This document shows positions 3,471 to 33,227 of a DNA stretch of 34,653 bases, in pieces; position 1 is the stretch's first letter, and each line of letters begins with the position of its first letter. Under the pieces are notes generated by a model. It did not search any database. It saw only the letters and a list, made by a program, of their open reading frames with translations, and was not told the DNA's origin. The stretch covers positions 1-34,653 of the IMG/VR virus record IMGVR_UViG_3300006924_000078. One strand, given 5' to 3'. The position numbers and the translations under genes are program-made. The DNA comes from a virus.

Positions 3471-6400
3471 ATGCCACTAACAAGACTGGACAACCTGATT
3501 ACCAGTAAAACAGGTAAATATCTTTATGTTTCGCCAGACGATTTTAATGCGTCAGACGAATTGAATAACAGGGGAAACTCTCCTGTAAGACCATTCAAGA
3601 GCATTCAGCGTGCTTTCCTTGAGGTTGCAAGATACTCATTTCTGCCTGGTGTAGACAATGATCGCTTCGACCAGTTCACCATCATGCTTATGCCTGGTGA
3701 ACACTTCATTGATAACCGTCCTGGTCTTTCCGACACTAGTAATATTGATGTATTTGGTTACAATACGACGACAAGTGAATGGACTGATAACAGCATTCTA
3801 GATTTGTCAAATCCAGATAATATTTTCTACAAGTTTAATAACACTGAGGGTGGATGTATTATCCCTCGTGGTACTTCTCTTGTTGGTTATGATCTTCGTA
3901 GAACGATGGTCAAGCCTTTATATGTTCCTGACCCTGCTGACTCTAGAGAAAATCGTTCGGCAATTTTCAATGTAACTGGTGGTTGTTACTTCTGGCAGTT
4001 TACTATCAAAGATGGTGAAACAACTTCACTATCTCCTCTCTACAATTCTTCTGCTGCTATACCTAGTGGTGAGGTTTATTATTCTAAGGATGACTTTACA
4101 AAGAAAACTGCACCTAATTATTCTCACCACAAATTAACTGTATTTGAATATGCAGACAAAGAAGAGTTAAGTCTACTCTACAGAAAGATTGCAAAGGCAT
4201 TTGAGGATTTCACACCAGGAATCAATATAGAAAATCCTAGTGGAAAACGAGAATTTGATGTAAGAGTTCAAGAAAACAGAATTGTTGGTCCACTGTCTGA
4301 CTCTAGAGCAATTGAGAGTCTACAGTTTGATGATGCTACATCTGATCCTGCAATTCCTGGATCTAATGTAAGAGTCACTGTAACAACTAAGATCGAGCAT
4401 GGTTATTTTGCTGGTCAGTCTGTTGCTATACTCAACACTGATGTCGATGACAAACTAGAAGGAACTTTTGTAATCTCTTCTATTGATGCAAACGATGGAA
4501 GGAAGTTTACTTACTTTGTCGAAGGCGAAGTTGTAACTACAATTGGTCCTGGTTCTAACTCTGGTGCAAGTAGTATTGCTCCTGGTGATGTTCTTAATAT
4601 CTCCTCAATTCCTGCTTTAGGAACTGGTGCATTAACTCTTGCAGAAGTTGATTCTGTTGAGTCTGCATCTCCTTATGTCTTTAACGTATCAATTCGCTCT
4701 ACATGGGGCATCTGTGGTATCTGGGCAAACGGTCTGAAGGCTACTGGATTTAAGTCCATGGTCATAGCTCAATATACTGGAGTTAGCCTTCAGAAAGATG
4801 ATAGAGCATTCATTCGTTATGATGAGTTTACTAACACTTTCAATCAAGCATCACTGAAAGATGCATTTGATAGTATTCCTTATCATACTAAGGGAGATTC
4901 TTTCTGGAAAGACGAATGGAGAAACTTCCATGTTCGTGCATCAGAAGACGCATTCATCCAGAACGTTTCTATCTTCGCTGTTGGTTTCGCTGATCACTTC
5001 CTGATGGAAAGTGGTGGTGACATGTCGATCACCAACTCGAACTCTAACTTCGGTAATACCTCACTACATGCAATCGGTCATAAAGGATTTGCATTCAATA
5101 GTGATAAGGGTGGATATATTGATGCTATTATTCCTCCTAAAGTTATTGAACCTACTGAAAAGAGGATTAACTACTATCCATTTAACTTACCTGCAACCAT
5201 CAATGGTGTAGAAGGTATTCAAACTAAAAATCAGGGTGTCGTTGTATATAACAATACCAGATTGTATCTTGAGTCTGATGAAGATGCAATTAATCCTGAT
5301 AAGCGTCCTGCTGTATCCATTGAGGGTTATAGACTTGGTGCAAGACAGAACGATAAAATTTATGTAAAACTTGAGAAAGGATATGCTACTGACGACCAGG
5401 AATATAGTGCAGAACTAAATCCAACTGGTTTTGTTAAGTATATCGCCAAACCTGATATTATCTCCCCTTCTACTGGCGGAGTAATTGATAATCTTTCTTT
5501 GGATGCTGCCAACCTTATTGAGGCAAACAGAACATTCTTCCAAGAAGAAGTCTTTGGATATGTTTTAGAAAAGTATCCTGATCTTCAACAAATTTCTTAT
5601 GTTAATCCTGGTCTAGATCCACAATCTAATCGTTATCAAGATTCTCGTAATCTCATCATTGCTAACAGAGATGAGATTGTAGATGAAGCATACGATTCGA
5701 TGTTTGCTGCTTTTGGTCCAGCAGGTGAGAATAACGCTGCATTTAACTCTGGAAATGACGAGACTAAGTGTAAGCGTGACATTGGATTAATTGTTGATGC
5801 TATTGCAGAAGACCTCAGAGATGGTGGTAACGGTAATATTATCGATGCTACTAAGAAATATTTTAATGCTGATGGTACACCGTTAGTTAACGGTCTGCTT
5901 GGAGAAGAAGAATTTGCTATTTTTGCATTCCGCAGAGCGCGTGATCTTTGTAAGCAAGCAATTGCAAACTTATTGACAGTAACTGATACTACAGTTAGTA
6001 TTGACCCTGCTAATACTGTTGCTAAGGACTTCCAACCAACAGGAGCAACATACGATCCTTCTAATGGTAATTTTGTATTCACCCTTGCTGATCATGGATT
6101 TAATGTTGGTGATTGTCTAGAACTAAACCCAAGTGGATTTACTTTCACTTGTGCGATGGACGGCAATAAGACCGAACATTCTCTTCCACAAATAGGACAA
6201 TTTGCGTATAACAAGACTATTCCTATTGATGCAATAACTGACGACACTATTCGTGTTAATGTAGGTGCATCTGGTCCTAATGTAGAGTTCACTCCATCTG
6301 GAGCAACATATAATCCTGCAACTGGTGATCTTGTACTAGAAATTGGCACTCATACTTTATCGGTTGGTGAAGGTGTTGTTATTGATGACAACTCATTGAG

Positions 6401-12400: not shown

Positions 12401-15400
12401 TCGTCAGAGTGGTGATATCTTCATCGGTAAGAACCAAGTTAAAGCAGCACAGTTTGTAATTAACCCGATCAGAAATGGTCAAGGTTATAAGATTCAAACA
12501 CATACGATAATCGACGGTGGTATCGTATTCCCATCAAATGTATCTCCAAACCAATCCGCTTTATATTCTCTAAGCACTGGTGGTACTTCTCTAAATGCTA
12601 AACAATATGTTAAGTATGGTACATCAGGAGCATTTATCTTACCCACAGATGGAGATATCTTATTCAAGGGCGGTTCTGTTGAAAGATCTGGATCTCTTGG
12701 TTGGGTATATTCAAACTTCTATACTTCAATACAAAATGCTGCGATTGCTTCTGTTCAATTTAATGGAACGAAGTATGTTAAACTGAACTGGGACCTTGTT
12801 TCCTCTGTTCAGCAAACTAATAACAGTCTTGGTATTGTAGAGACATCTAGAATTAGAATCAAGAACTTCTATCCTAATGCTGCCCTAGAAAGTGACGGTG
12901 GATTCCCAATTGTTTCTCCAACTATTCAGGGAACTACATATCCATTCAATGCAAGCAACACCTTCTGTTATATTGAGATTGGTGAATCTATCGCTGCAGT
13001 ATCTTACGATAATGATGGTGATGGTGCAATTGATAATCCTGTCTCTAATCCAACATGGGATAACTTAATTTTACGAGCAGGAACACCTATTAACGGTGGT
13101 ACTCCTGCTCCTACTATGGAGTTCTCTTCTGCTAACTGGAAGGAAACAGGTGTTATTGGTGCTGACGTTCTAAGAACTGATACAGCTAGTATTGGTGATT
13201 ACAAACTTGGTATTAACACAATAGCAGCTGCAGCACATAGTGCATACGAAACTGCGTTTGTTGATGCTAATACTGATCCAAAGGCAAACCTAGAGGTCAT
13301 TGGTACTACATGGATTAGCGGTAAGAAAGTTCTAACTTGGTTAGACGAATCTTCTGCAACCCTAACCAATAAGACTGAAACTGGTCAGGCAAATGCATTC
13401 ATGGTTGGTGGATTCAGAGACAATCCTGATTCTACTGCATTAATTAGAGCGAATACTCTAACAAATAGAGTTGGTATTAACATCGCCAACAACAATACTC
13501 TTCTCGATAAGACATTTGTTGTTAATGGTGAAGTGAGAATTGCTCAGACATTAACTCTAACTAACGGAACAATTGAAAGTCCTTCTGGAACCTTTAATTT
13601 AGGTCCTACAAGTACAAGTATCAACCTGTTCCCATTAGCAACCACGCTGAATGTTGCAAATGATGCAACAGCAACGCAAACCATCAACATTGGCAATGCA
13701 ACTGCTAACCAGACGCTTACTATTGGTGGTGGAGCAGACACATCTGCTCTCTATATTCATAGTTCTTCTGAGTCTTCTGTTATTGACATCGGTACTGTAT
13801 CTAACTCTAATTCGGGTTATCAGTCATCTATCACAATGGGTGGCGCATTCCAGAACAGTGCATCTCTATTCAATATTAGAAACAGACTACTCAAAATAGA
13901 TGGTGATATTCAACTTGGTACACCATCTACTGGCATTACCAAGATGTACTCCTTCACTCCAAAACTGGAGATCTTTAGTGCATCTGGTGGTTCTAATGAA
14001 ATTGATGCTTTCCGTACAGGTTCTATTCTCAGCATTGGTGCTGATGCAGGAACTACAACCATCAATAACAGTCTTTATGTCAAAGCATCTGAACGAGTTG
14101 ATGGAAACATCACACTAAATGGTGGTCTGTCTGTTGGCATCATCACTGCAACTAGAGGTATCTTTAGTACATCTACTTCTTCTCATGCAGTAGGTGCAAC
14201 TGATGATCTCAACATTGATATCTACAGAAGAACAGAAATTGGTAAGACAATTGACTCTCAAGGTAATGCTCTATGGGGTGGCACAACCTTCCAAGAAGGA
14301 ACTAACACTTACTACTTACCTCTTAATGAGGCAATTGGTATTACTGATATTGCTATCGGTGATTTCCTTCTAATTGATAGAGGAGATACTACTGGTGGTA
14401 GTAACCAAGCAAACTCTGAAATCGTTAAAGTTGTAACTCTTATTAATGCTAGCAATGCTAATGATTCTGAGGGTTATAGAGTTGAGGTTGAAAGAGCACA
14501 GGAAGGAACTACACTCCGTACCGATCATCCTGACAACTGTAAGGTTGTCAAACTTCTTAAGCAGAACAATGTAAGTTATCTAACTCAAGCAATTGCTACT
14601 GCTGGTAGTCAAGGAGATTCGGTATCGATTACAACTGCTGAGTTTGGTGGTAGTATCAAGATCAATGATATTATTAGACTAAATGATGGGGAACTATTCA
14701 ATGTAAGTGGTATTAGTACCGATGCATCGAATATTCAAGGTTTAAGAATTAATGATGGTGCTGAACCAACTGCCTTTACTGTATTCGAGGTTCTCTCTAC
14801 TACAGGTCAAACGACAATTGAAGGTCCAACTGAAGTTAGAAATGATATTACCTTAACTGGTAGTACATCAAACAATGATAAGATGTTCACCATTACAAAT
14901 GGTGCTTCTTCTCCTATTACTGTATTTGATGTTGACAGTTCTGATGGCGACACTAGAATCCTTGGTGATCTAAGTGTCGGTGCTAACTTCCAAGAGTTTA
15001 CAGTTGATGGTGACTTAGGTAATGTTACCATGAAAGGTGGCAACCTTGACATCTTTAATAATGCTGGCACTACCAAGCAACTTGAATTCATTAATGGTAA
15101 TGGTAACTTAACTATTGCAGGTGTTATTGAAACTGAGGGAACAGGAACTAATCTGTTCGCTGGTGATATTCAACTTAACGGTGGCGACCTCACTGTTAAC
15201 GATGGATCCACCACAAGATTCAAGGTAAATAATGATGGTGGAATTGACCTTGGTGGAATCACAGACTACATCAGTCAGACTGGTGGTAGAAAGTGGGTTT
15301 ATCAGTCTACAGTATCTGGTGATGGTGGAGTATTGACTGCTAATGTTAACTACTTTACTAAAGCATCTTCTGACCTTGTTCTTAAATTGCCCCCGAGCGC

Positions 15401-16919: not shown

Positions 16920-17791
16920 TGGCAAATTACGCAAGAGAACGAGGAAAATATGGTGGGGTTGTGGGAGCAATCCAAATTTTTACTAGTGATTTGCCTCTCC
17001 AAGGCGACCCGTTGGATCCAGTTTGGAGGAAAAAAATTCCTGGTGGATTTTTACGCTGCGATGGTAAAATATATGATGCTGGTGACTACCCAGAATTGGC
17101 AGCAGTTTTGGGTGTTGGTAGTGCTTGTAAGTTTAAAAAACCAGAAATTGAATTAAGTGCAACGCAATTTCAAGTACCTGATGTTGGTGCTAAGTTTCTT
17201 TCTCCTGGTTTAGCATCTGGTACTTATCAGAGCACGGTTCTTGCTCAAACTGTCACAGAAAATAATAGTGGTGATATTAGAGTTGGTGCTGAAGTTCTAG
17301 TATCTGCACAATCAAATACTTTTACTATTGGATATAGTGGAAACTTCACTGTTGTTGGTCAATCTGATGTTGAATTACAGGGAAATGCAAAATTTAAACC
17401 ACCAAATGAAGATAGAGAAACTGGAGCAGCATTTTTAGATTCATCTTCTTTTCAGGCACATGGTCATAACACTAATGCAAAAGTGTTGAACTATACAGGT
17501 AACTTTAAAGTTGGTGCTGAGGGTAAAAGTGGAACTGATTTAACACCTTTCGCAGGTAATAGTATTATAGGATCTGGTAATCCTACTAATGATGCTGCAT
17601 CAAATCACTTACATGGTATTAGTTGGCCATCAACAACTGATTATGATCAAAATTACGTGTTTCAATTCCCTACATTTAATGTCGCAGCAGATAATTTGCA
17701 AACAACTTTAACTGTACAAACAAAAACAATTGATGAACTGCCAGAATCAATTCAACCTTTCATTTTAGTAGAGTATATTATTAAATTTTAA
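16919..17791 (+). CDS. Tail-collar-domain fibre protein, 290 aa
   Basis: A second collar protein, shorter and divergent. The core is GAIQIF, PGGFLRCDGKIY, DYPELAAVLG (residues about 16-65) and QVPDVGAKFLSPG (85-97). The second half is beta-rich with His-x-His pairs HGH (181-183) and HLH (230-232). It ends in EYIIKF, aligning with the IIKAY and LIRAY ends of its neighbours. It is coupled to the previous gene by a 1-base TAATG overlap and followed after 2 bases by the Ig-like adhesin gene. Probably a virion fibre component that pairs with one of the adjacent adhesins (inference). Confidence 0.8.
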   Translation: MANYARERGKYGGVVGAIQIFTSDLPLQGDPLDPVWRKKIPGGFLRCDGKIYDAGDYPELAAVLGVGSACKFKKPEIELSATQFQVPDVGAKFLSPGLASGTYQSTVLAQTVTENNSGDIRVGAEVLVSAQSNTFTIGYSGNFTVVGQSDVELQGNAKFKPPNEDRETGAAFLDSSSFQAHGHNTNAKVLNYTGNFKVGAEGKSGTDLTPFAGNSIIGSGNPTNDAASNHLHGISWPSTTDYDQNYVFQFPTFNVAADNLQTTLTVQTKTIDELPESIQPFILVEYIIKF

Positions 17792-26540: not shown

Positions 26541-27485
26541 ATGGCAGAATATTTCTATCAAAAACCAACAGACGAAGAAGTTAAGGAATTTTGGTCAAAG
26601 ACCATTAGACCTAGAGAATCTGTCATGGAATTGAACTTCTCTGAAAAAGCAGTTACTCTAGGTAATGTTGCTGAAGGTGGTCTAACTACATTTATTGATG
26701 AGAAAGCATGGGCAGATATTGTTCTTCCTTCTATTTCATCAGAATGGCATGACCCAGGTAAAGATGAAATAAAGAACTTAATTCTTTATAGTGATGATAC
26801 ATATCTCTGCTTTAGATCTAAGATGAGATATGAGTTTGATACAAATACTACTCGATGGGTAGATTATACTTATAAAAAGGGTAATGTATCAGACATTAAA
26901 ACTATCAACGAAACTATTCGTGCTGTTGCTGTCATTCAAAAAGAAGTAAAACAGAGAGAACTTCTGGAAGAAGTAAGAAAGTTAAATCTGGAGGCACTTG
27001 ATTATTATTATGATACTAAGTGGTATAAAAGAATAGATGAAATTCAGAAAATGTTATTGTATTCTGATTGGAGAGTTCTCCCTGATGCACCACAGAAATT
27101 TGATGGTGAGCAAGCTCTATGGATTACTTGGAGAGATAAACTAAGAAATCTTCTTCCGAAAAATCCAAGAGAAACATTTTCGGATAACTTTGAAATGTTT
27201 AAATTTGTTCAAACATTGAAGTATCCAGTTGATCCTTCTATATACATGGAAACATATCCTAACCGTGATGTAGAGTATTTGTCTACTGATGATCAGTTTC
27301 ACAAGTATGATTTCCAAGTATCTAAAGATTTTGTTGGTAAAACTCAATTAAATTTGATTACATTCTTAGAAACATATGATACTAATACTAGACCTATTGA
27401 AGCAAAAGTGTTAGAATTGGCAAAGGCGTTGAAATTAGAAACTGTTTACGAAGGACTTGATTACGAAAAATTTGTTGCTGAATAA
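26541..27485 (+). CDS. Probable tail-fibre assembly chaperone, 314 aa
   Basis: Residues about 160-210 (WYKRIDEIQKMLLYSDWRVL, then PDAP and ITWRDKLRNLL) resemble the small phage tail assembly chaperone domain, in which an R-x-x-LL-x-x-SDW-x-x-LPDAP motif is followed by a W-x-x-[YW]-R-x-x-LR helix. Residues 1-130 are a mixed domain without a recognised motif, and the C-terminus (FVGKTQLNLITFLETYDT onward) is helical. Gene position directly after the fibre and first oxygenase genes suits a helper for folding or trimerising the fibres. It starts 1 base after the previous stop. Assignment rests on one motif and on context; a non-chaperone role is possible. Confidence 0.6.
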   Translation: MAEYFYQKPTDEEVKEFWSKTIRPRESVMELNFSEKAVTLGNVAEGGLTTFIDEKAWADIVLPSISSEWHDPGKDEIKNLILYSDDTYLCFRSKMRYEFDTNTTRWVDYTYKKGNVSDIKTINETIRAVAVIQKEVKQRELLEEVRKLNLEALDYYYDTKWYKRIDEIQKMLLYSDWRVLPDAPQKFDGEQALWITWRDKLRNLLPKNPRETFSDNFEMFKFVQTLKYPVDPSIYMETYPNRDVEYLSTDDQFHKYDFQVSKDFVGKTQLNLITFLETYDTNTRPIEAKVLELAKALKLETVYEGLDYEKFVAE

Positions 27486-27488
27486 TAT

Positions 27489-28133
27489 ATGATTTATGAA
27501 TATGATATGCTCCCTAAAGGAGTTGTGAAAAATGTACTTGATTTCTATCAGTTTTGTGAATTTACAGACGGTTCTTGGTCTGGATCTCAGAATAAACAAT
27601 TAAAGTACAATGAACAATTGTTGGATGAATCACATTATCCAACTCTTGTTTCTATGATGAATAAGTATATCGCTGAGAACCAGGGATTTAATTATTACTT
27701 TGTTCCTAGCGCACATACACATCCAAACTTTCTTAGATATAAAGAAGGTATGCATTATCATTGGCATAATGATATGTGGATCATGGATGGCATCAAGACA
27801 GATTATAGTATAACTGTATTTCTTAGCGAACCTGATGATTATGAAGGTGGAGAACTAGAAATTGAAGTTGGTGATTCTGCAGTAGAATATAAACTAGAGG
27901 CAGGTAGAGCAGTAATCTATCATACTGGACTAAGACATAGAGTTAAACCAGTCTTGAAAGGTGAACGAAATGTAGTTACATGGTGGTTTACTTCTATGAT
28001 TGACAATGGTAAGGTTCGTGATATAATTACAGAATACTCTCGTCTGCTTTCTGAGACACCTATGGATCCAAGTGTGAAGTGGAAGTTTGAGAATATTCGT
28101 CAAAACTTGATTAGAGAACATGCAACTTTCTGA
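27489..28133 (+). CDS. PKHD/PiuC-like 2OG-Fe(II) hydroxylase
   Basis: 214 residues with a complete facial triad: HND (His93, Asp95), distal His150 in LRHRVKPVLKGER, and Arg160 for 2-oxoglutarate. The segments ITVFLSEPDDYEGGELEIE and AVIYHTGLRHRVKPV closely follow the PKHD-type (PiuC) hydroxylase pattern and resemble the oxygenase at 2720 (DPNEYEGGELEF, LPHRVKPV), so the two may be distant paralogues. A helical C-terminal extension of about 45 residues follows. It overlaps the next oxygenase gene by 14 bases. The substrate is unknown; fibre protein or a host component are both possible. Confidence 0.88.
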   Translation: MIYEYDMLPKGVVKNVLDFYQFCEFTDGSWSGSQNKQLKYNEQLLDESHYPTLVSMMNKYIAENQGFNYYFVPSAHTHPNFLRYKEGMHYHWHNDMWIMDGIKTDYSITVFLSEPDDYEGGELEIEVGDSAVEYKLEAGRAVIYHTGLRHRVKPVLKGERNVVTWWFTSMIDNGKVRDIITEYSRLLSETPMDPSVKWKFENIRQNLIREHATF

Positions 28134-28638
28134 TATTAAGGAGTATCCTAACTTCTTTTCTGCCACTGATCATCTATCAATTAATAGAGCAATTAGCAAA
28201 AAACCATGGTATTGGGGACATCAGAGTCATCCCAAGAAAAATAGTGGTCTACCTCCATTTTGGCAGATGCTATTAAATGATGATGCCTTCTTCTCAGACT
28301 ATCTCCTAAATAAGATTAAGGAAAATACTGGTAATGAATATGATCTTGAGCGTGTTTACGCAAATGGTCAAACTTATGGTATGAGAGGCAGTATTCACCA
28401 AGATGGATTTGATGAGAGTTGCAGAACTCTATTATATTATCCTCTTGAAGTTTGGAATCCTGAGTGGAATGGCAAGACTGCTTTTAAACTAGGGAATGAA
28501 TATCGTTATGTTACTCCTGAACCAAACAAAGCAATTATATTTCCTGGCGCAATCCCACACTGGGCAGAAGAAACTTCTAGAACATTTGCTTCACTGAGAA
28601 TCACTATCGCATGGAAACTGTTTATTAAAGTAAAATGA
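28120..28638 (+). CDS. 2OG-Fe(II) oxygenase, 172 aa
   Basis: A compact dioxygenase: IHQDG gives His93 and Asp95, followed by the strand RTLLYYPLEVWNPEWNGKTAFK; AIIFPGAIPHWAEET gives distal His147; and RITIAWK places Arg160 at the 2-oxoglutarate site. The W-x-x-EWNGKTAF segment is characteristic of the group of small phage oxygenases related to prolyl-4-hydroxylase. It overlaps the preceding oxygenase (14 bases) and the next gene (ATGA), so expression is coupled. No membrane or export signal is seen. Confidence 0.85.
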   Translation: MQLSDIKEYPNFFSATDHLSINRAISKKPWYWGHQSHPKKNSGLPPFWQMLLNDDAFFSDYLLNKIKENTGNEYDLERVYANGQTYGMRGSIHQDGFDESCRTLLYYPLEVWNPEWNGKTAFKLGNEYRYVTPEPNKAIIFPGAIPHWAEETSRTFASLRITIAWKLFIKVK

Positions 28639-28970
28639 ACTATCAGGTATACGAATTTCAAGAAATTATTGAACAAGCAATTGCTTGGAGAAGGAGACCC
28701 ACTGTCTTTGTTCGTAATATCGGTCCACGAGCAATTACTGATGATGCCAGACGCGATGAAGTCTATGGCATCTATAGAATGTTACTGTCAAATGATGTAA
28801 TGCAAGGTTTGCTTAAAAATGAGTATATCTTCATTAGTTTTGATGATTTGGATGATGCAAGAGAGTATGCTGTGGATAAGTTCCCAAGAAATAGTGAGGG
28901 AGATGCTGATATGTACTTGCAAGTTGAAGTATATGATAACGAAGGCAGAATCGAATACGATAATAAGTAA
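28635..28970 (+). CDS. Hypothetical protein, 111 aa
   Basis: Not recognised. It has an arginine-rich segment (AWRRRPTVFVRNIGPRA, residues about 17-33) followed by an acidic, alternating helix/strand second half (FDDLDDAREYAVDKFPRN, LQVEVYDNEGRIEYDN). It is ATGA-coupled to the upstream oxygenase and 2 bases before the next gene, so it belongs to the same operon. No catalytic motif. Confidence 0.6.
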   Translation: MNYQVYEFQEIIEQAIAWRRRPTVFVRNIGPRAITDDARRDEVYGIYRMLLSNDVMQGLLKNEYIFISFDDLDDAREYAVDKFPRNSEGDADMYLQVEVYDNEGRIEYDNK

Positions 28971-28972
28971 TC

Positions 28973-29836
28973 ATGGCAGTAACAGAATATTATATGGGTG
29001 CTCAAGAGCACAGTATTAACACAGAAACATTCTTAAACTACCATAGATATGTTCCTCAGGCATATGTAAAGTATGATCTAATTACTGAACCTGCTCGTGT
29101 AAAGTTGCAAGAGTTCTGGGAATTTATCAAGATATCTACACTCAAACCAGGATATTTGTCAACAGCATTGTTAAAGACAAATGATTCTGGTATTTGGTTT
29201 ACAACAACTGATAATACATTTGCTGAAGATCTGTCATTTCATGCATATAGTACAGTAGATTATAGAACAGTTAATCGGAATGAGTTGTTTGCCATGTTTG
29301 GTAAGACACAACCAGAATTGATGTCTCATCTTCTATTGGAAGAGTTAGATATTGGACTTGAAGGTATATCTGTCTCTCCTAGTGGTGAATTACAAAAATG
29401 CATTTTTGTATTCAGACCCAACTCACATGTTCTTTCACTTCTGAATCTTCCTAACTATGATAAACTACAGAAGTTTGTAGATCTTAGTTTTGAAGAATTG
29501 AAGACATCTAATAATGCATCCACATCGTTTAGTTCTCCAATTCGCTTGCAAGTAGATCCAAATGATGATACACTGTCTGTAGAATTTGTAAGTGCTTTCT
29601 TCCAGAAAGATCTTTATATTAGTGGTGGCAATCATGATTCTTATCTCGGTAGAAAGAATCATTACTTTGATAGAATGATTGAAGCAGATCTTTTAACAAC
29701 AGACGAGGTTGCATATTGTAAGACAAATAGTCCATCTTGGCAACAATTCTCCATCAAATTTAAATATAGTGGTGGTGAGTTAGTAGATAAAAAACTGTAT
29801 ACATTTGATGTTAGTGACTTTGAAACTGTAACATGA
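28973..29836 (+). CDS. Unrecognised protein within oxygenase cluster, 287 aa
   Basis: I do not recognise this family. The protein is mixed alpha/beta with regular strand-like segments (GIWFTTTDNTF, QKCIFVFRPNSHVL, IRLQVDPNDDTLSVEFV, FSIKFKYSGGEL) and a helical stretch around residues 45-60. It has no signal peptide or membrane segment. It lies between oxygenase genes and overlaps the next one by 4 bases (ATGA), so it should be made at the same time and in similar amounts. A partner, substrate-binding or second modifying function in the same pathway would fit the position, but nothing in the sequence shows it. Confidence 0.65.
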   Translation: MAVTEYYMGAQEHSINTETFLNYHRYVPQAYVKYDLITEPARVKLQEFWEFIKISTLKPGYLSTALLKTNDSGIWFTTTDNTFAEDLSFHAYSTVDYRTVNRNELFAMFGKTQPELMSHLLLEELDIGLEGISVSPSGELQKCIFVFRPNSHVLSLLNLPNYDKLQKFVDLSFEELKTSNNASTSFSSPIRLQVDPNDDTLSVEFVSAFFQKDLYISGGNHDSYLGRKNHYFDRMIEADLLTTDEVAYCKTNSPSWQQFSIKFKYSGGELVDKKLYTFDVSDFETVT

Positions 29837-30399
29837 TCCTTGGTAGTATTATCCACGAGTATAAACTTGATTGTTTAGATGTAAACGAACGAGTTATTGA
29901 TTTCTTATATCAATACAAGAAAGCACAATCTACTTCTGATGTTAGATCTAATAGAAATGGATGGCAGAAGAATCATCTAGAGAATTTTCCACAACTTAAA
30001 CCTCTCACTGATCTACTTGCTGTAGAGTTTGAGAGGTTTATTTGTGATCAAATGTTGCCATTGGTTGAGACACGATTTTATCTTGGTAATTTGTTTTGTA
30101 ATATCAATCCACCAGGTGCTGTGCATGTACCACATGTACACCAAGGAGATTTTACTGGAGTATATTACTTGCAAGCACCAGAAGATTGTGGTACGCTTAG
30201 TATTTTGAATCCCCATCAATGTTCCAACACTGCTAGAATGACATCTATGTTTGCTGGTGTCAAACTAGAACAGAAGATTATTCCCACTGCTGGCACTGGG
30301 TATTTCTTTCCAACACACCTTGTACACTATGTTGAGGAGAATCTATCACAATCAGATAGGATATCCTTGTCATATAATATTAATGTCGAACCAAAATGA
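29833..30399 (+). CDS. Putative 2OG-Fe(II) oxygenase (2OG-FeII_Oxy_5-like)
   Basis: 188 residues. The block NINPPGAVHVPHVHQGDFTGVYYLQAP matches the N-x-N-x-x-G...H-x-H...G-V-Y-Y-L pattern of the 2OG-FeII_Oxy_5 family, split here at residues about 90-116. A distal THLVHYVEEN (His165) and Arg176 in DRISLSYNI complete the usual order. The first ligand pair reads His101-Val-His103 rather than HxD; this family often shows that form, so the real acidic ligand is uncertain (Asp106 is close by). It is coupled on both sides by 4-base overlaps. Confidence 0.78.
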   Translation: MILGSIIHEYKLDCLDVNERVIDFLYQYKKAQSTSDVRSNRNGWQKNHLENFPQLKPLTDLLAVEFERFICDQMLPLVETRFYLGNLFCNINPPGAVHVPHVHQGDFTGVYYLQAPEDCGTLSILNPHQCSNTARMTSMFAGVKLEQKIIPTAGTGYFFPTHLVHYVEENLSQSDRISLSYNINVEPK

Positions 30400-30983
30400 T
30401 CTGTAAAGTTATTGATGGATTGTTTGATCCTGTATATCTACATCAAATAGATTCAGTGGTGAGAGATATTCCCCTGTCTACAAATAATATTGCTAATAGG
30501 AAAACATATCCTTATGGCACAGAAGGCACACATAGACTGATGGGTCAAATACTATTCAATCGTGAGGATATTAATACTATCACCACATTGAAACCTGAGT
30601 GTGAAGACTTCTTTAAGATCTTGAAAGTAGTTGAGAAAGAACTCAATGCATACTTCTATTGCTCTCAGATAACTGTAAATGTGCAGCACAGTGGTTGTGA
30701 TGGCACTACACATGTTGATAGTCCTGATCCAAACGACTATACTATACTATTATTCTCTTGTGCCACATGGAAACAAGAGTGGGGTGGACAGTTTCAGTTG
30801 TGTACATCAGACGGTGAAATTGTGGAGGAACACGAGTATATTCCTGGTCGCGTTATATTAGTACCATCAAAACACCCACACAGAGGTTTAGGACCAACTG
30901 AACCATATATCTATAGATCATCTGTAGCATTTAGAGTTACCCCATTAGACCATCATCTTCGTACAAATTACCAAGGACAATGA
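30396..30983 (+). CDS. 2OG-Fe(II) oxygenase, prolyl-4-hydroxylase-like, 195 aa
   Basis: Complete signature: THVDS (His106, Asp108), strand YTILLFSCATW, the WGGQFQL motif typical of prolyl-4-hydroxylase-type enzymes, GRVILVPSKHPHRGLGP with distal His162, and Arg174 (IYRSSVAFRV). The N-terminal 90 residues form a helical cap with two or more Cys. It is coupled upstream and downstream by ATGA overlaps. The divergent sequence relative to the other six oxygenases suggests separate acquisition rather than recent duplication. Confidence 0.85.
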   Translation: MICKVIDGLFDPVYLHQIDSVVRDIPLSTNNIANRKTYPYGTEGTHRLMGQILFNREDINTITTLKPECEDFFKILKVVEKELNAYFYCSQITVNVQHSGCDGTTHVDSPDPNDYTILLFSCATWKQEWGGQFQLCTSDGEIVEEHEYIPGRVILVPSKHPHRGLGPTEPYIYRSSVAFRVTPLDHHLRTNYQGQ

Positions 30984-31174
30984 AAGTACCAACACAATCA
31001 GAACTTACTCATTTGCAGTTACAAGCAATGATGAGAGAAAACTCATTTCCAGAGAGTGAACTATGTTATCTGGGTATGAGAGATGGCGAATACTGGTATT
31101 TGATTGCTGGTGAACATGAAGTACCAGTATCTGCTATTGAAGATTTAACTCAGGTAAGTGATGATGCAGTTTGA
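30980..31174 (+). CDS. Hypothetical protein, 64 aa
   Basis: A small protein with an N-terminal amphipathic helix (SELTHLQLQAMMRENSFP) and a strand-rich C-terminus (CYLGMRDGEYWYLIAGEHEV). Not recognised. Overlapping starts and stops on both sides place it in the oxygenase operon. Its last 14 bases overlap the next gene. Confidence 0.55.
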   Translation: MKVPTQSELTHLQLQAMMRENSFPESELCYLGMRDGEYWYLIAGEHEVPVSAIEDLTQVSDDAV

Positions 31175-31823
31175 TGATCTAAAAACATTTGGTGTTACAT
31201 ATAATAAGTTTACACGAGATGATCTAGAATTTCTATATCGTCAAGTTGATCTCATTCGTAATAACTTTGGCAGTGCAGTGCCTGCTAATGAAGATCTTAT
31301 TGGTCACATAGATCATGAGTATTTCTTACCTGATCAGTGTAAACAGCAGTTAGAGACACTAGTTCTGCCTATGGTTGGTGCATATCTACAAGAGTATCCA
31401 ACATATAATAGAGCGAAACTTGGTGTGTTATCTGATGGTGTGCCTATTATTTTAAGAGATGCATGGGTAAACTTTCAGAAGAAGTATGAGTACAACCCCG
31501 TGCATGATCATGGTGGTGCTTTTAGTTTTGTATTATGGTTAAAGATACCATACACAAGAGAAGATGAAGATGGTGTGTCATTTACTCAAAAACTACACAA
31601 GGATGCACTAACATCTAATGGTAAGTTTGAATTCTTTTATAATGATACTTTTGGTGGTATCTACAGTCACAAACTACCAATTGATCCATCATATGAGGGT
31701 ATGATACTATTGTTTCCATCAACCATGAAGCATTGTGTCTATCCATTCTATACATCCGATGACTACAGAATATCAATATCAGGAAATTTCTATCTCGACA
31801 CAGGGAGTGGACAGTCCGCATAG
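31161..31823 (+). CDS. Putative 2OG-Fe(II) oxygenase, 220 aa
   Basis: The core block NPVHDHGGAFSFVLWLKIP (residues 112-130) and ILLFPSTMKHCVYPF (182-196) with Arg203 before ISISGNFY follow the dioxygenase order His-x-His...His...Arg (His115, His117, His191, Arg203). As in the gene at 29833, the second ligand position is His in place of Asp. A GTG three bases upstream (31158) and a second ATG at 31164 are alternatives; AGG at 31152-31154 best fits the ATG at 31161. It is the last gene before a strong terminator, so it closes the late tail operon. Confidence 0.72.
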   Translation: MMQFDDLKTFGVTYNKFTRDDLEFLYRQVDLIRNNFGSAVPANEDLIGHIDHEYFLPDQCKQQLETLVLPMVGAYLQEYPTYNRAKLGVLSDGVPIILRDAWVNFQKKYEYNPVHDHGGAFSFVLWLKIPYTREDEDGVSFTQKLHKDALTSNGKFEFFYNDTFGGIYSHKLPIDPSYEGMILLFPSTMKHCVYPFYTSDDYRISISGNFYLDTGSGQSA

Positions 31824-31833
31824 TGGACTACAG

Positions 31834-31856
31834 GGACGCACATGCGTCCTTTTTTT
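31834..31856 (+). terminator. Rho-independent terminator
   Basis: GGACGC (31834-31839) and GCGTCC (31844-31849) form a G+C stem around ACAT, followed by seven T (31850-31856). It lies 10 bases after the last oxygenase stop. A second small stem, AGTCC/GGACT (31813-31829), spans the stop codon just before it. It separates the tail operon from the methyltransferase block. Confidence 0.9.
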
Positions 31857-31887
31857 GTCTATAATTATTCCATAAGCAATCGACCCC

Positions 31888-32508
31888 ATGCCACTCACTG
31901 CTGAACAAGGTTACAAGATCCGCGAGGAATACTCTGATATTAAAGAGAAAGCGGTGTGTGATGCTCATGGTCTTGAGCAGATTGGCGGATCACGCACTAA
32001 GATTGACGGACAGGATGCTAACAAGCGTGTTAGTATCAAGAATGCTAGTGGTAGCAGCACCCAGGTGCATCTAACTACACAAAAGCATTTCATGGAGGTT
32101 CTCAACATCACAGGTGATTCTGCTGAGTTTGTCAAGCATTTCTGTGGCAACAAAGAATATGACTACAACGGCAAAGATCGCCGTACTATTAAACAGATAG
32201 ACACACAATATACTGAGGCATTCAAACAGTTCCTTGATGATAATAAGCGTGCTGTAGTTGATCTCATTATCAAGAACGGGTTTGACATTACTCATGTAGT
32301 GTACAATCACATGCCAACTCAAGAGTATGAGTTGACTTATCAGCAGATTATTGGTAAAATAGAACAAGCAGAGTGGAAGTTCTTGAGTGGTGGGGTTCAT
32401 TTGAAACTCAACGGCAAGACTCTCTTTCACTTTCAGCGTGAGGGTAAGCGTAACCCCAGCAATCGCTACAATGTTCTCTGGCACATTCACCTTAACTTGT
32501 TCGTATGA
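31888..32508 (+). CDS. Possible PD-(D/E)XK-like restriction endonuclease, 206 aa
   Basis: The gene is unidentified by name, but residues 40-51 (DGQDANKRVSIK) have the spacing of a PD-(D/E)XK nuclease centre: Asp40, then Ser49-x-Lys51 on a strand, with Glu30 ten residues earlier. A following NASGSSTQVHLTTQ segment and a C-terminal strand pattern (KTLFHFQREGK, YNVLWHIHLNLF) recall small type II restriction endonucleases. The gene overlaps a DNA methyltransferase gene by 4 bases (ATGA), the usual arrangement of restriction-modification pairs. Ser in place of Asp/Glu in the motif weakens the call; a methyltransferase partner or specificity factor is the alternative. It follows a strong terminator and has no clear ribosome binding sequence. 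Confidence 0.5.
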   Translation: MPLTAEQGYKIREEYSDIKEKAVCDAHGLEQIGGSRTKIDGQDANKRVSIKNASGSSTQVHLTTQKHFMEVLNITGDSAEFVKHFCGNKEYDYNGKDRRTIKQIDTQYTEAFKQFLDDNKRAVVDLIIKNGFDITHVVYNHMPTQEYELTYQQIIGKIEQAEWKFLSGGVHLKLNGKTLFHFQREGKRNPSNRYNVLWHIHLNLFV

Positions 32509-33227
32509 TTATCGAAAAAGACTGTATTGAAGGCATGAAAGAACTTGACGAGAGTTCTATTGATTGCATTATTACATCACCACCATACAATAAGAAAGGT
32601 TTGCTAGGCAATGTCAAGCGCGGCAATCAGATCTGGGGTAAGTTTAACATTGATTATTCTACCTATGGTGATGATATGCCAGAGCAAGAGTATCAGGCAT
32701 GGATGGTAGCATTCTTGAATGAGTGTCACAGGGTGATCAAAGATGATGGTAGCATCTTCTTCAATCACAAACCACGAAGACACAAGAATAGATGCTATCT
32801 CCCTACTGATTTCATTGCCCATAGTGATGCACAACTGTATCAACTAATCATCTGGGATAGACGCAACTCACCTAACATTCGCAATGATGTTCTTGTGCCA
32901 TGTACTGAGCACATTTATTGGTTCTGTAAAAAGAAACCCAAGGTGTTCCGTGATGCTGTTGATCAACAGTATCGTAGTGAGGTGTGGGTGATTCCTCCTG
33001 ATCGTCAGAAGCAGCACCCTGCTCCATTCCCTGACAAGTTGGTACGCAATTGCATACAACTCACTACAGAGGCAGGAGACACGGTTCTGGATCCTTTTAT
33101 GGGGTCTGGTACTACCGCTCTCGTTGCTCAGTCTCTTAACCGTAACTGGATCGGATACGAGATTGATAAAGATTATATTAAGATCACAACCGAACGCCTT
33201 AAATCTAGTGTATTATCATTTACATAG
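32505..33227 (+). CDS. Site-specific DNA methyltransferase (beta class, N4-C or N6-A)
   Basis: 240 residues with motif IV TSPPYN (24-29) near the N-terminus and motif I DPFMGSGTT (196-204) near the C-terminus, followed by GYEID (218-222); this order is that of beta-class amino-methyltransferases. HPAPFPDKLV (171-180) is the usual motif before the SAM-binding half. The protein transfers a methyl group from S-adenosylmethionine to an exocyclic amino group; SPPY is common among N4-cytosine enzymes but also occurs in N6-adenine ones, so the base is open. The recognition domain is small (residues 30-160). It may protect phage DNA from host restriction or from the overlapping upstream nuclease candidate. 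Confidence 0.9.
   Translation: MIIEKDCIEGMKELDESSIDCIITSPPYNKKGLLGNVKRGNQIWGKFNIDYSTYGDDMPEQEYQAWMVAFLNECHRVIKDDGSIFFNHKPRRHKNRCYLPTDFIAHSDAQLYQLIIWDRRNSPNIRNDVLVPCTEHIYWFCKKKPKVFRDAVDQQYRSEVWVIPPDRQKQHPAPFPDKLVRNCIQLTTEAGDTVLDPFMGSGTTALVAQSLNRNWIGYEIDKDYIKITTERLKSSVLSFT

Follow-up and report, generated by a model that had tools for sequence, protein, structure and literature searches.

The R–M Locus

The window, i.e., the whole stretch of DNA that was analyzed, is the virus record IMGVR_UViG_3300006924_000078 (34.7 kb; positions 1–34653). It carries two adjacent genes on the same strand, here called R and M, in which the end of R and the start of M share the four bases ATGA (Table 1). A sequence-only reading of this DNA had described a 206-residue gene overlapping a methyltransferase gene by 4 bases, TSPPYN and DPFMGSGTT motifs in the methyltransferase, and a D40-x8-S49-x-K51 arrangement in the 206-residue protein. 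The overlap is exactly as described, both methyltransferase motifs are in place (residues 24–29 and 196–204), and the D/S/K arrangement is likewise found, all three residues being invariant in 68 distinct homologues.

For both genes, the closest annotated relative is Synechococcus phage Sf-CH1b (protein identity of 95% for R and 93% for M), and the gene order around the pair is similar in Sf-CH1b and the window. A putative hairpin (31832–31851; a pattern match only) stands between the upstream oxygenase-like gene and the R–M pair. Immediately upstream of the pair, positions 26541–31823 of the window hold a series of genes, most of whose counterparts in Sf-CH1b carry the annotation prolyl-4-hydroxylase or 2OG-Fe(II) oxygenase.

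Table 1. Features of the window.
Feature	Position	Strand	Remarks
Intrinsic-terminator-like hairpin and T-run	31832..31858	+	AGGGACGCACATGCGTCCTT then TTTTTG; pattern match only
R gene (206 aa)	31888..32508	+	ATG start; PHROG 25220, until now of unknown function
Predicted active site of R, D40...S49-x-K51	32005..32040	+	Invariant in 68 homologues; alignment with HinP1I
Q59-V-H61 of the TQVHLT strand of R	32062..32070	+	Q59 and H61 invariant in homologues
M gene (240 aa)	32505..33227	+	ATG start; PF01555
TSPPYN catalytic motif of M	32574..32591	+	Direct reading; invariant in 36 homologues
DPFMGSGTT SAM-binding motif of M	33090..33116	+	Direct reading; core residues invariant
ACGT site 1 of 4	4684..4687	.	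4-mer count
ACGT site 2 of 4	4963..4966	.	4-mer count
ACGT site 3 of 4	13165..13168	.	4-mer count
ACGT site 4 of 4	17655..17658	.	4-mer count

Methyltransferase M

M matches the Pfam family N6_N4_Mtase (PF01555) with an E value of 4.3e-47. Its SPPY motif (residues 25–28) lies ahead of FMGSG (residues 198–202), which is the permuted, beta-type order, and the SPPY form is typical of N4C-methyltransferases (MTases) and fits m4C. In the profile A2 search, the nearest solved structures are 8s9m/8s9n (E about 2e-72), which we take to be those of the bdelloid rotifer DNA cytosine-N4 methyltransferase N4CMT. Although this enzyme (PDB 8s9m-o) is the closest solved relative of M, it lies outside any restriction system. 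Motif order and m4C-specific closest relatives, the two features by which an N4-cytosine MTase of the beta (permuted) class is recognized, are thus both found in M. Judged from its sequence, M is probably an amino-methyltransferase of the cytosine-N4 type, with both chemistry and specificity being inferred.

Predicted Fold and Active Site of Nuclease R

Annotation of R by sequence alone (Pfam, NCBIfam, PADLOC, and phmmer against the PDB) yielded nothing useful, and the R protein of the window has no Pfam match to PF11463, the HinP1I family. Scans of GTDB genomes and of plasmids for R homologues found none that is cellular and none on plasmids. The structure of R was predicted by AlphaFold (AF2) using 68 diverse homologues (pLDDT 88.4, pTM 0.81), and a member of a second R clade was also folded (L103; pLDDT 82.8, pTM 0.80). 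The R model has the alpha/beta fold of PD-(D/E)XK nucleases. Comparison with the PDB by Foldseek gives E values below 1e-3 for the restriction endonucleases HinP1I (E 7.6e-10) and MspI only. VIA-align ranks R.HinP1I first (Z 15.7 and 15.6; PF11463; PDB 1ynm, 2fkc; cleavage site G^CGC), with the same fold over nearly the whole chain (196 aligned residues at Z 15.7), followed by R.MspI (Z 10.6; PF09208; PDB 1sa3; C^CGG) and, in the next row, the HhaI endonuclease (Z 4.7); Hjc resolvases, which are likewise PD-(D/E)XK proteins, appear at lower Z than HinP1I and MspI.

Profile comparisons point the same way. HinP1I is the top match of the R-family profile A3 among PDB sequences (E 0.031), single members of the family touch the Pfam models R-HINP1I (best E 0.0084) and Endonuc-MspI (best E 0.0096), and hhalign of the R profile against HinP1I and two mollicute homologues gives an E value of 1.4e-5. 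The best score of any family member against PF11463 is 16.1 bits, under the Pfam gathering threshold of 25 bits; R is therefore referred to as a new family related to HinP1I/MspI, a remote relative and not a member. The predicted fold and these profile matches support the assignment of R to the PD-(D/E)XK endonucleases of the HinP1I/MspI group, with cleavage itself being inferred.

In the R model, D40 lies on the strand of residues 38–42, and S49 and K51 lie on that of residues 47–53. These three residues are invariant in homologues with identities down to 23–25%, and the QVH motif is retained even by the most diverged linked homologues. In the local hhalign alignment, S49-x-K51 falls on Q81-x-K83 of HinP1I; D40 is paired with D62 in the global one. 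In terms of the motif Asp...(Asp/Glu)-x-Lys, Asp40 and Lys51 of R are thus invariant, and the acidic position is occupied by the invariant Ser49. The corresponding residue of HinP1I is Gln81 (the position was checked against the sequence) and that of MspI is presumably Asn; D62, Q81, and K83 of HinP1I, and likewise their MspI counterparts, are assumed here to have active-site roles. MspI, like R, is a PD-(D/E)XK variant in which the acidic residue is missing, and HinP1I is functional despite the Gln. Ser49 therefore need not argue against activity of R.

The sequence-only reading had proposed a candidate nuclease partner with a C-terminus reminiscent of small type II endonucleases, to be refuted by a fold unrelated to PD-(D/E)XK or by non-conservation of the Asp and Lys positions. 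Neither refutation occurred; what needs amending concerns the motif, which is a variant one, as its acidic (D/E) position is Ser.

R differs from HinP1I in sequence (14% identity), in length (about 40 residues shorter), in the Ser for Gln81, and in its predicted site, ACGT (see below). R.HinP1I homologues examined adjoin an MTase, as R does, but theirs is of the C5 type and that of R an amino-MTase. R.MspI shares 8% identity with R, is larger, and has a different site.

Linkage and Evolution of R and M

The 11 cyanophage records in GenBank that carry R are the same 11 that carry M at 60% identity or more, and the pair is also found in many IMG/VR contigs. This recurrence in both databases, together with a dN/dS of 0.05–0.14 for R (dS partly saturated), argues that the pair is not a chance product of ORF calling, and R is under purifying selection. 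Most IMG/VR loci have R upstream of M with the 4-base overlap; other arrangements are M upstream of R (gaps of -17, 82, 1207, and 1370) and convergent genes. Even where R retains only about 25% identity, it adjoins an M that is about 80% identical. At two loci initially classed as having the MTase alone (L137, L138), the gene upstream proved to be an even more distant one with D..S-x-K..QVH. In one clade (L076, L077, L079-L085; R about 37–44% identical), an unrelated Dam-type MTase (PF05869) replaces M, and R and the Dam gene have a 4-base (ATGA) overlap where checked. In six further loci (L060-L064, L066), R is present and neither MTase class was found on the searched contigs (up to 71 kb); as the contigs are fragments, absence of an MTase from these loci is unproven.

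Could M be the functional part, protecting the phage from host restriction, with R either a passenger in decay or a DNA-binding helper without activity? Lone MTases are common in phages, MTase-only loci of M's family exist, one locus (L141) keeps M with R internally deleted, and the acidic motif residue of R is replaced by Ser. A decaying gene does not fit the low dN/dS of R or a D/S/K core that is invariant over 68 divergent proteins, R is also found where the MTase is of another kind or where none was detected, and HinP1I works with Gln at the corresponding place. We regard this explanation as very improbable.

S-RIM12 has an intact R frame (L003:5001-5627) that its GenBank records do not annotate, and the start given there for M is a later one. 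In this phage, the R–M pair is immediately followed by another gene annotated as a DNA adenine methylase (L003:6636-7454).

Depletion of ACGT in R Carriers

For all 136 strand-symmetric 4-mers, the observed count was divided by that expected from a maximum-order Markov model, and contigs with R (R+; 39 contig stretches in 29 groups by shared backbone DNA) were compared with phages without it (R−; 17 Kyanoviridae or related cyanophages). ACGT ranks first of the 136 in separating R+ from R− cyanophages, with a median log2 ratio of -2.71 in clade A R+ cyanophages versus -0.37 in R− phages (Mann-Whitney p 1.4e-5) and a p value of 6e-7 when all R+ are compared with R−. In the other R clades alone, ACGT is third by p and has by far the largest effect. 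These p values are optimistic because contigs were treated as independent although not all R+ phages represent separate lineages.

The window has four ACGT sites against about 46 expected. ACGT depletion is seen with every flanking pair. In the Dam-paired clade, ACGT is absent (0/94.7 expected) and every other 4-mer has a ratio of at least 0.82; ACGT is also absent from the contig G002, which has R and no detected MTase (0/88.6 expected). The R− cyanophages have ratios of mostly 0.7–1.0, and the R-deleted locus is near normal (22/32, 0.69). The best matched case is provided by phages grown on the same host strain, WH8102, in which the R+ phage Sf-CH1b (3/95, 0.03) contrasts with the R− phages S-ShM2 (74/96, 0.77) and S-SSM5 (78/95, 0.82), so that host restriction is an unlikely cause there.

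The association is not complete. Several R+ contigs lack strong depletion (G048 0.73, G055 0.83, G053 0.65, G054 0.70, G063 0.67), as do the R+ phages S-CAM22 (0.50) and S-RIM12 (0.44). Among the R− controls, Syn33 (0.37) and P-TIM68 (0.42) have moderately low ratios; Syn33 belongs to the same genus, Brizovirus, as the R+ phage S-RIM12, and only 12 ACGT were expected in P-TIM68. ACGT is also low in some contigs with M and no detected R (G023 0.14, G017 0.28, G013 0.34); in G023, several further palindromes are purged. In addition, a restriction-modification (R-M) system in which M protects the phage DNA would not strictly require the loss of ACGT.

The contig G003, which has R without a detected MTase and 38 ACGT against 72 expected, was considered as a counterexample to purging and rejected, as all of its sites lie from 15.9 kb on. 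Its first 15.8 kb, which holds R, has none of 34 expected sites, and the first 11 kb of this part matches G002 at about 90–92% identity. At about 15.8 kb, ACGT passes from 0/34 to 38/38 expected (L205/L206), and GC content shifts after about 20–24 kb. These shifts suggest a mosaic, chimeric, or recombinant contig, and motif density can flag such contig junctions.

The main alternative is that R is a restriction endonuclease with a different true site, and that ACGT is avoided because of restriction by hosts or other phages. Such outside pressures clearly exist, since CCGG, AGCT, AGCC, and GGCC are avoided in marine cyanophages irrespective of R; moreover, the clade with R and no detected MTase also avoids TCGA, CGCG, and CCGG, and the ACGT-poor contigs with M and no detected R are compatible with this explanation. 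Outside restriction does not readily account for the difference by R among WH8102 phages (0.03 vs. 0.77–0.82), for ACGT as the sole depleted 4-mer of the Dam-paired clade, or for the near-normal count at the R-deleted locus. The sites of HinP1I (GCGC) and MspI (CCGG) are both NCGN. ACGT fits this pattern, and it offers an adenine to the Dam-type partner and a cytosine to the N4C-type partner. We therefore consider outside restriction of ACGT unlikely, without dismissing it. The target of R is probably ACGT, an inference that rests on genome composition and fold analogy, with cleavage and the specificity of M inferred.

Other Motifs Avoided by Cyanophages

Because R− cyanophages avoid them too, CCGG, GGCC, AGCT, and AGCC were rejected as signatures of the R target. 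In T4-like marine cyanophages (the window and controls L156-L158, L219-L232), CCGG is almost absent (0/15 expected in the window) and RGCY (AGCT, AGCC/GGCT, GGCC) is strongly avoided, possibly because of restriction by hosts or competitors. Individual phages lack other palindromes in the examined stretch, namely GTAC in Syn1 (L221; 0.00), CTAG in S-SM2 (L219; 0.00), and TTAA in S-ShM2 (L220; 0.00). These gaps hint at further restriction specificities, whether of phages or of hosts.

A Probable Phage-Borne Type II Restriction-Modification System

A Type II R-M system comprises an MTase with catalytic and SAM motifs, a linked endonuclease gene that is retained through evolution, and cleavage by the nuclease, blocked by the MTase, at one and the same sequence. 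The locus has the first two; the third is inferred, the only and indirect indication being that ACGT depletion tracks R. The pair had been called restriction-modification-like at the outset, a description now strengthened by an MTase linkage that outlasts changes of gene order and replacement of the MTase, and by the purging of ACGT in R carriers. We consider it highly likely that R and M constitute a Type II R-M system of lytic T4-like cyanophages, with a HinP1I/MspI-like R and ACGT as the likely target. The pairing, the invariant catalytic positions, the purifying selection, and the specific loss of ACGT in R+ phages are direct observations and the fold is a prediction; cleavage, methylation, and biological role are inferred.

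If R were a self-spreading nuclease of the homing or mobility type and the MTase a hitchhiker, the variable genome position of the pair would fit, and free-standing homing endonucleases are numerous in phages. Homing, however, needs a target much longer than four bases; lasting pairing with an MTase and the removal of a palindrome from the whole genome are typical signs of Type II restriction, and the confident fold matches of R are to Type II enzymes only. This possibility is hardly credible.

In the proposed Type II system, R would cut unmodified ACGT after infection, putatively as A^CGT by analogy with G^CGC of HinP1I and C^CGG of MspI, and M would methylate the cytosine of ACGT. Methylation, together with the loss of nearly all of its own ACGT sites, would protect the phage DNA. 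As incoming phage DNA would already be methylated or site-poor, no control gene would be needed and R may precede M, as the endonuclease gene does in melbournevirus. The targets would be DNA with unmodified ACGT, i.e., competing phages and/or the host chromosome; the data do not decide between them. T4-like cyanophages lack denA, denB, and ndd, the genes by which T4 degrades host DNA, and a review suggests that they may rely on an undescribed method instead (PMC2984593); the lack of these genes makes an attack on the host plausible. A further step would be to regard the system as a phage weapon, in which self-immunity is achieved mostly by purging the phage's own ACGT sites and the MTase is secondary and exchangeable (N4C-type, Dam-type, or absent); we see this as evenly poised between right and wrong.

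Related Viral Systems and Significance

Type II R-M systems are known in viruses, namely chloroviruses and marseilleviruses, and restriction enzymes have been described as rare on bacteriophages (PMC4081073). In melbournevirus, the endonuclease gene is transcribed before the neighboring MTase gene, and the proposed target is competitor viral DNA, not the host (PMC7253447). These systems are virus-borne and Type II, as the R–M pair would be, but they belong to eukaryotic viruses, the melbournevirus site is GATC, and their enzymes have not been shown to be related to R or M. In the same phage family as the R carriers, cyanophages Syn19, Syn2, and ACG-2014j have a pair annotated as 'R.RsaI endonuclease' and dam (Syn19 L004:2489-3789), in which the end of a small 171-aa gene overlaps the beginning of the MTase gene downstream of it, whose product is about 33% identical to M. 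The Syn19 gene was rejected as an R homologue, as its 171-aa protein has no similarity to R.

New here are the R family, its kinship with HinP1I/MspI together with an S-x-K site, the exchange of MTase partners, and the inference of a target from site purging, including in phages seemingly without an MTase. The composition method, which looks for a motif that carriers alone have purged, could point to the targets of other phage-borne nucleases. R represents a widespread, previously unannotated nuclease family of marine cyanophages with a specific predicted target, and is a direct candidate for host-DNA degradation in the phages that carry it. As phages without the system hold dozens of ACGT per 35 kb (74 in S-ShM2), phage–phage exclusion in the ocean is predicted. 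If R and M are indeed a weapon, lytic phages would turn restriction on competitors and the host, the reverse of its usual role.
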